Source of the DNA: Haloferax marinisediminis | Lineage (GTDB): Archaea > Halobacteriota > Halobacteria > Halobacteriales > Haloferacaceae | Direction of reading: 5' to 3' | NCBI RefSeq assembly: GCF_009674585.1 | Contig: NZ_WKJP01000001.1 | Coordinates: forward strand, 1 to 64,000 | Length of the DNA stretch: 64,000 bases | Shown: positions 16,951 to 18,425 of the stretch, piece after piece | Layout: each line of letters opens with the position of its first letter | Numbering within the stretch: the first letter of the stretch is position 1 | Notes under the pieces: model-generated | Seen by the model: only the letters and a program-made list of their open reading frames with translations | Told to the model about the DNA's origin: nothing | The model's database searches: none | Translations under genes and position numbers: made by a program

Positions 16951-16977
16951 ATTTGAGCAGATGGTTTACGAGGATGA

Positions 16978-16990
16978 CTAATTATCTTTC
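16978..16990 (-). promoter_or_regulatory. TATA element of ftsZ1
   Basis: On the minus strand GAAAGATAATTAG lies 28-40 bp before the ftsZ1 start and fits a haloarchaeal BRE/TATA pair. Confidence 0.55.
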
Positions 16991-16997
16991 CCCCTTG

Positions 16998-17017
16998 TGT
17001 CAGACGTGCGTCTGACA
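16998..17017. promoter_or_regulatory. 20-bp palindrome upstream of ftsZ1
   Basis: Arms TGTCAGACG and CGTCTGACA (9 bp each, perfect) flank a 2-bp centre. The site ends just before the TATA region of ftsZ1, 48-67 bp from the start codon, where an activator or repressor would bind. Related words (TGTCTGATGACA at 17045-17056, TCTGAGTCAGA at 17100-17110) occur in the same intergenic stretch. Confidence 0.55.
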
Positions 17018-17105
17018 ACGACGATATTTGGGGCGTTTAATTACTGTCTGATGACACGTACTTCGGGAAAATCGGACAGTCGCAGTTAATTGATAACTAT
17101 CTGAG

Positions 17106-18425
17106 TCAGACAACGAACTCGACAACTCTCTCGCGCGCGACGTCCGCGGGGTCGACAGTCTCTCCGTCGACCTCGACCGCCTGGCCTGACGAGAGTTTCC
17201 CGAACGCGGGTCCCTCTGGAACACCCCGTTCACGGGCCGCTTCGGGGTCGAAGGCGCTGACGGACGCTGTGACGCGGCCATCGTCGCGGACCACCGAGTC
17301 GTACTTCTGCCGAAGAATCTCACAGAGACGGTCGACGAGTTCGTCGTATCCATCTTCAGTGACCGCTGCACGGCCGACCGCGCGCGTCCCGCCTTCGGTC
17401 GTGTGGAAGGCGACAGTCGTCTCGGTGACTGCGTCGAGTGCGTCGTCGAGGTCGACGCCTTGTGCCTCGCCGAGGAGCCCATCCGGAAGCGAGACCGTGT
17501 CGTAGGTTTCGGCGTCGATATCCGCCCCGAACCGGAGTCCATCTTCGATTCGTGTGATGTCAGATTCGAGTTCACGAACGCGACCGAGTGGGACGCCTGC
17601 AGTCTCGCGGACCCACGTCTCGGAGACGACGCGGTAGCCCTCGTCGTCGAGGACTTCCGCGAGGTCGTCACGGTCACCGTCGACGAGTGCGACGTCTGCT
17701 GCCGACGCCTCGAACGCGCGACGGAGCACGTCCCGATTTTCGTCGGGAGAGCCCATCGACTTCAGTTGCCAATCGGCAGCGATGTGGCCGACACACCAGT
17801 CAGTGTCTTCGAGGACTCGAAGGAACCGCGGCGCGTAGTGGCCGCCACCAAAGCCCACGAGTTGTCGGTCGGTGTCTGGAGCGACGCCCTGAATGTCGAG
17901 GACAGCGGCAGCGACTGCGCGCGCGCCATCGGGGTCTTGCCACTCCGACTCGTCGCTTCCGAGTTCGACGAACATCGAGGGAACAGCGGTCTGGGTTGGA
18001 CCGTGGTGCGTCGCCTCGATGCCGACTTCGTAGCCGTCAGGGGCGTGGGTTCGGAGTGCCTCGACGACCGCGCGCTGGGCGTTTGGACAGGCGCGGGCGA
18101 AGTGCCCTGCTTCACCGCCGTAGTCAGCGGGGCCAAAGTTACCGGTGAAGTGTGCAGTCAGAAGCGGACCGGTCTCGCCAGAGTGCCGAGACACGAATGC
18201 GACGAGGTCGATGTCAGAAGCGAACGCTTCGGCGGGGTCGTCGAGATAGATGTGGAGGTCGTCGAACTCACGAAGTTCGAACCCCTCACGGCGATAGAAC
18301 GTCCCGCCGCCGTCGGCGTCCGGTCGGTCCTCGTCCACCTGTTCGTCCCAGTCGGCGAGAGAGCGAAGGTGCTCGCCGATGTGGACCGATGCGCTGTCAG
18401 CGCGACTGACGACGATTCCAATCAC
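17106..18425 (-). CDS. dtdA: D-aminoacyl-tRNA deacylase (archaeal DTD2 type)
   Basis: This enzyme removes D-amino acids wrongly attached to tRNA. Family motifs are IGIVVSRADSAS at the start, TAHFTGNFGPADYGG near 95-115, EATHHGPTQT near 135-145, and GFGGGHYAPRF. The C-terminal half extends beyond the core domain, as in other haloarchaea. The GTG at 18425 is chosen because the family begins at IGIVVS; the frame upstream to 18488 is less conserved and starts with another GTG. With this start the protein is 439 residues. Confidence 0.9.
   Translation of the reverse strand: MIGIVVSRADSASVHIGEHLRSLADWDEQVDEDRPDADGGGTFYRREGFELREFDDLHIYLDDPAEAFASDIDLVAFVSRHSGETGPLLTAHFTGNFGPADYGGEAGHFARACPNAQRAVVEALRTHAPDGYEVGIEATHHGPTQTAVPSMFVELGSDESEWQDPDGARAVAAAVLDIQGVAPDTDRQLVGFGGGHYAPRFLRVLEDTDWCVGHIAADWQLKSMGSPDENRDVLRRAFEASAADVALVDGDRDDLAEVLDDEGYRVVSETWVRETAGVPLGRVRELESDITRIEDGLRFGADIDAETYDTVSLPDGLLGEAQGVDLDDALDAVTETTVAFHTTEGGTRAVGRAAVTEDGYDELVDRLCEILRQKYDSVVRDDGRVTASVSAFDPEAARERGVPEGPAFGKLSSGQAVEVDGETVDPADVARERVVEFVV

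Follow-up and report, generated by a model that had tools for sequence, protein, structure and literature searches.

In the genome of Haloferax marinisediminis, the gap upstream of the division gene ftsZ1 holds a perfect palindrome, which raises the question of what, if anything, reads it. A sequence-only reading of the window (the whole 64,000-nucleotide stretch analysed) had described the palindrome, placed it 48–67 bp before FtsZ1 and immediately 5′ of a TATA-like element, and guessed at a regulated division promoter involving CdrS. The palindrome is read directly in the sequence as TGTCAGACG-TG-CGTCTGACA (whole 20-mer TGTCAGACGTGCGTCTGACA), with 9-bp arms that match without a mismatch around the 2-bp centre, and its distance to the FtsZ1 ATG (16950, minus strand) is as described, with the BRE/TATA GGGGGAAAGATAATTAG next to it on the ATG side (Table 1). 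The gene behind the gap (16951–17105) is dtdA (PF04414, 17106–18488, minus strand), which points the same way as ftsZ1; the gap therefore serves ftsZ1 only.

The palindrome is not a word of random frequency. Pattern searches find the exact 20-mer as a single copy in the 3.49-Mb genome and, with up to three mismatches allowed, one match in the window against 0.08 expected, and eight places genome-wide against one for the reversed control. The related words that had been pointed out at 17045–17056 and 17100–17110 are present, but as parts of the operator they fail, as they are not kept in the four closest relatives aligned; TGTCTGATGACA and TCTGAGTCAGA were accordingly rejected as additional operators.

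Table 1. Features of the ftsZ1 promoter region in the window
Feature	Position	Strand	Basis
20-bp perfect palindrome, predicted CdrS operator of ftsZ1	16998..17017	.	sequence, class-wide conservation, counterpart of the H. volcanii −50 ChIP-seq site
Promoter-distal half-site GTCAGAC (pattern GTCnGAC)	17010..17016	minus	sequence and comparison of promoters
4-bp spacer	17006..17009	.	length fixed at 4 in ftsZ1 promoters; half-site centres 11 bp apart
Promoter-proximal half-site GTCTGAC (pattern GTCnGAC)	16999..17005	minus	sequence and comparison of promoters
BRE/TATA region of the ftsZ1 promoter (GGGGAAAGATAATTAG)	about 16980..16995	minus	sequence; a G-rich and then an A/T-rich block, both conserved, directly follow the operator
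Inferred ftsZ1 transcription start	16957..16958	minus	published −50 distance (H. volcanii) applied to the operator
ftsZ1, 377 aa	15817..16950	minus	Tubulin PF00091 and FtsZ_C PF12327

To define the site at the level of single bases, ftsZ1 upstream regions were collected from named genomes and 145 genomes of the class Halobacteria, yielding 150 distinct promoters. The conserved core is GTCnGAC-N4-GTCnGAC, composed of two self-palindromic 7-mers 11 bp apart. Specifically, each 7-mer is palindromic around its free base, so that the site can be read as an inverted repeat and equally as a tandem one stepping by 11 bp. The core is perfect in 97 of the 150 promoters and within one mismatch in 131, counts that include many related species and do not represent 150 independent events. 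All 97 perfect matches have a spacer of 4 bp, while spacers of 0–3 and 5–11 bp give none in the same 150 promoters, and four control words likewise give no perfect match there. The consensus over 141 sites is CGTCnGACGnnCGTCnGACG, with weighted information of 1.2–2.0 bits at the GTC and GAC positions. Over the 44 bp further upstream, every position stays under about 0.25 bit, and there is no other conserved block upstream of the BRE/TATA. From what is known of the ribbon-helix-helix (RHH) family, the two-half geometry would fit two RHH dimers on one DNA face.

The site is present in close as well as distant relatives. By genus, the core is found with at most one mismatch in 34 of the 46 genera examined, and it is perfect in 23. 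For 40 ftsZ1 genes belonging to the phylum's other families, with start codons assigned crudely and one entry lacking upstream sequence, the best upstream matches follow the shuffled distribution, and an origin of the operator before the class was rejected on that ground. Judged from the sequences sampled, the operator would appear to be a trait of the Halobacteria that the other archaea sampled lack, although reports of CdrS extend far beyond this class (PMC7439475). Natronorubrum bangense carries two ftsZ1 copies, one on the chromosome and one on an 828-kb plasmid (L120 and L122), with identical upstream sequence including the operator.

The published binding data for Haloferax volcanii come to the same place. 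ChIP-seq of CdrS gave 18 sites with a symmetric motif (Liao et al. 2021, PMC8406309), and one site lies upstream of the ftsZ1 promoter with motif nucleotide 10 at −50 from the transcription start. CRISPRi depletion of cdrS-ftsZ2 gave a log2 change of −1.3 for ftsZ1, a modest effect measured with CdrS and FtsZ2 depleted together, and cdrS overexpression raised FtsZ1 about 1.7-fold (PMC8406309). Our comparison with H. volcanii was made by the published distances, and the sequences compared are those of the nearest named relatives. Position 17007 of the window is nucleotide 10 of the 18-bp core and lies 57 nt from the ATG; together with the −50 distance, this would place the transcription start at about 16957 and the TATA at about −24 to −31, as is expected for an archaeal promoter. 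With the resulting 7-nt leader, the core falls at the published −50 location, and the perfect 9-bp arms of the palindrome provide the symmetric motif. Identity with the published CdrS motif is suggested by position and shared pattern. Furthermore, cdrS is present in the window's genome upstream of ftsZ2 (G000:C1:155978–156160; RHH_1, PF01402; 61 residues) and in 144 of the 145 class genomes at the threshold used. Sequence matches of CdrS in the PDB are weak only, to CopG/Arc/MetJ-family antitoxins.

The same pattern recurs at other CdrS targets. The genes dacZ, panA and psmB were located in Haloferax genomes by family search, and matches were sought in a region of at least 200 bp. Upstream of all three there is a related pattern in which one half is strong (CGTCWGAC) and the other weaker. 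In the window's genome, nucleotide 10 lies 50, 96 and 75 nt from the ATG of dacZ, panA and psmB, respectively, counted for dacZ and psmB to an internal ATG that fits the conserved N-terminus. The corresponding ChIP distances to the transcription start in H. volcanii are −47, −92 and −72 (PMC8406309), and the two sets would be reconciled by leaders of 3–4 nt, which we assume. Support from panA is weaker in about half of the Haloferax genomes, where the best match found by our script lies elsewhere, and at dacZ and psmB one half of the site is weak. Pattern matches in the window's genome also lie beside hisB (PF00475) and 5′ of a PRC-domain gene (PF05239), both of which are kinds of gene named in the CdrS ChIP list (PMC8406309). 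The pattern is therefore shared at the targets examined among the 18, namely the dacZ, panA, psmB, hisB and PRC neighbourhoods. The pattern GACNNNCGTCWGAC is listed 14 times genome-wide, including ftsZ1 (both strands), hisB, psmB and panA, against three times for its reversed control. The idea that every one-mismatch match of the GTCnGAC-type core in the genome is a site was rejected, many of these matches being inside genes. Apart from ftsZ1, the genome has one exact GTCnGAC-N4-GTCnGAC (G000:C1:303034–303051, L040), flanked by divergent DUF7093 and DUF6432 genes; it is a candidate further CdrS target.

One genus departs from the consensus. Most members of genus g21 (family f2), which holds Halobacterium salinarum, carry a degenerate distal half, GTGCGAC. 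We take one genome of this genus (G032) to be Hbt. salinarum itself, its bacteriorhodopsin being 100% identical to the sequence from that species. Deletion of cdrS in Hbt. salinarum leaves ftsZ1 expression unchanged (PMC7439475, Darnell et al. 2020), which agrees with a weakened site as read from sequence, without proving a link. Halobacterium thus offers a natural experiment, with a damaged half-site and an ftsZ1 gene reported not to depend on CdrS.

Taken together, the palindrome is very probably the CdrS operator of ftsZ1, with two dimers 11 bp apart, moderate activation and coupling to the CdrS-FtsZ2 operon. In this model, the RHH protein CdrS would place one dimer on GTCAGAC and another on GTCTGAC, both on the same face of the DNA, right upstream of the BRE/TATA; bound CdrS would moderately raise ftsZ1 transcription, and the dose of FtsZ1 would thereby be linked to the CdrS-FtsZ2 operon. 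We infer the assignment of one dimer to each 7-mer, the directness of the activation and the same behaviour in this species. Our own analysis contributes the sequence, the position, the class-wide conservation, the fixed spacer, the pattern and spacing at other targets and the presence of cdrS, while the work on H. volcanii supplies the occupancy of ftsZ1 by CdrS and the drop in ftsZ1 expression upon depletion (PMC8406309). The operator interpretation and the guess at CdrS regulation made from the letters are supported, with a CdrS ChIP-seq site at the equivalent place in H. volcanii (PMC8406309). Neither of the two outcomes named beforehand as refuting, lack of conservation among close relatives and random frequency across the genome, was seen, and the palindrome is almost certainly, as far as comparison of sequences can tell, a docking site for CdrS.

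The palindrome might instead serve a different regulator, be it CdrL or some other RHH protein, or a dimeric factor unrelated to them, the CdrS ChIP signal then arising from a neighbouring or weaker element. CdrL is a second RHH protein whose gene adjoins cdrS, the cdrS leader holds the related word GTAAGAC-N4-GTCTTAC, and the CdrS-independent ftsZ1 of Hbt. salinarum (PMC7439475) would suit this explanation as well. It is nevertheless improbable: the only site that ChIP-seq of CdrL reproducibly found in Halobacterium is at cdrS-ftsZ2 and not at ftsZ1 (PMC7439475), whereas the distance published for CdrS leads to the palindrome itself, and further CdrS ChIP targets carry the pattern too (PMC8406309). 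Moreover, the region upstream of the BRE/TATA holds no other conserved block to which the CdrS signal could be assigned.

Palindromes can also extrude or aid termination, and this one lies in the dtdA-ftsZ1 gap, where it could be a repressor site, an insulator or a DNA-structural element, for example one that keeps dtdA read-through out of ftsZ1, instead of a site for an activator. Reading by a protein fits the strictness of the 4-bp spacer and the self-symmetry of the halves, whereas a hairpin would tolerate changes in loop length, and no T-run follows the palindrome on the gene strand. A place immediately 5′ of the BRE/TATA suits an activator site, and ftsZ1 expression falls on CdrS depletion (PMC8406309), all of which makes a repressing, insulating or structural role very improbable compared with that of a CdrS operator.

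A related word is found at cdrS itself, outside the window. The 5′ leader of cdrS-ftsZ2 (G000:C1:155857–155977, L301) contains two predicted hairpins with the common stem GUAAGAC/GUCUUAC, an arrangement found in about 90 genomes across the class. The first hairpin, at the presumed transcription start, has nearly invariant arms and a loop of 2–6 nt; across the class, 87 of 90 leaders keep the arms of GTAAGAC-n-GTCTTAC exactly, with a spacer of 2 to 6. The second pair, GTRAGAC...GTCTTAC, often encloses a variable inner helix and ends just 5′ of the Shine-Dalgarno, its 3′ arm standing just before GGGG. Folding of the inner helix is somewhat more stable than that of mononucleotide shuffles (mean z −1.2, 56 leaders), and Rfam has no match covering the element in the four loci searched. 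Within Haloferax, GTAAGACGGTTGTCTTAC is invariant upstream of cdrS in 15/15 loci examined, and it is unique in the window's genome. A CdrS-type site before cdrS, which would indicate autoregulation, was rejected, the best match having two mismatches and being the distinct GTAAGAC word. RNA structure is favoured because the loop length is variable and G-U variants occur, a DNA site because a CdrL ChIP peak lies at cdrS-ftsZ2 in Halobacterium (PMC7439475), and both may hold. The two-hairpin leader may be more novel than the ftsZ1 site. We tentatively raise the possibility, which we think doubtful, that Halobacteria control division at two levels through one related DNA/RNA word, as the two-dimer CdrS operator at ftsZ1 and as GTAAGAC...GTCTTAC at the start of the cdrS-ftsZ2 leader and beside its Shine-Dalgarno, acting as hairpins and/or a CdrL site; such a word would, if real, set the FtsZ1:FtsZ2 ratio.

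The finding is sound: a CdrS site already published for H. volcanii (PMC8406309) has its counterpart here in a further genome of the genus, so that the kind of site is known and the species is new. The CdrS (HVO_0582) site of H. volcanii and the present one share the gene, the place relative to promoter and start, the symmetric motif and the presence of cdrS, and they differ in that ours is in another genome of the genus and is predicted from sequence. What we add is the two-half definition at base level, in which a spacer fixed at 4 bp sets two near-identical halves one turn of the helix apart, and the class-wide conservation, neither of which we found stated for the H. volcanii site in the available part of its description (PMC8406309). 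The CdrS/CdrL-FtsZ2 network of Hbt. salinarum (PMC7439475) involves the same regulator family and division genes, but there ftsZ1 does not respond to cdrS deletion and its site has one broken half. One ChIP-seq peak in one species thereby becomes a testable operator definition for an archaeal cell-division regulator, covering most of the sampled genera of the class Halobacteria. The operators of bacterial RHH repressors (MetJ, Arc and CopG) are made up of short boxes, in tandem or inverted, on which RHH dimers sit side by side. The ftsZ1 site resembles these operators in its predicted adjacent-dimer boxes, but differs from them in lying upstream of the BRE/TATA and in being apparently activating.
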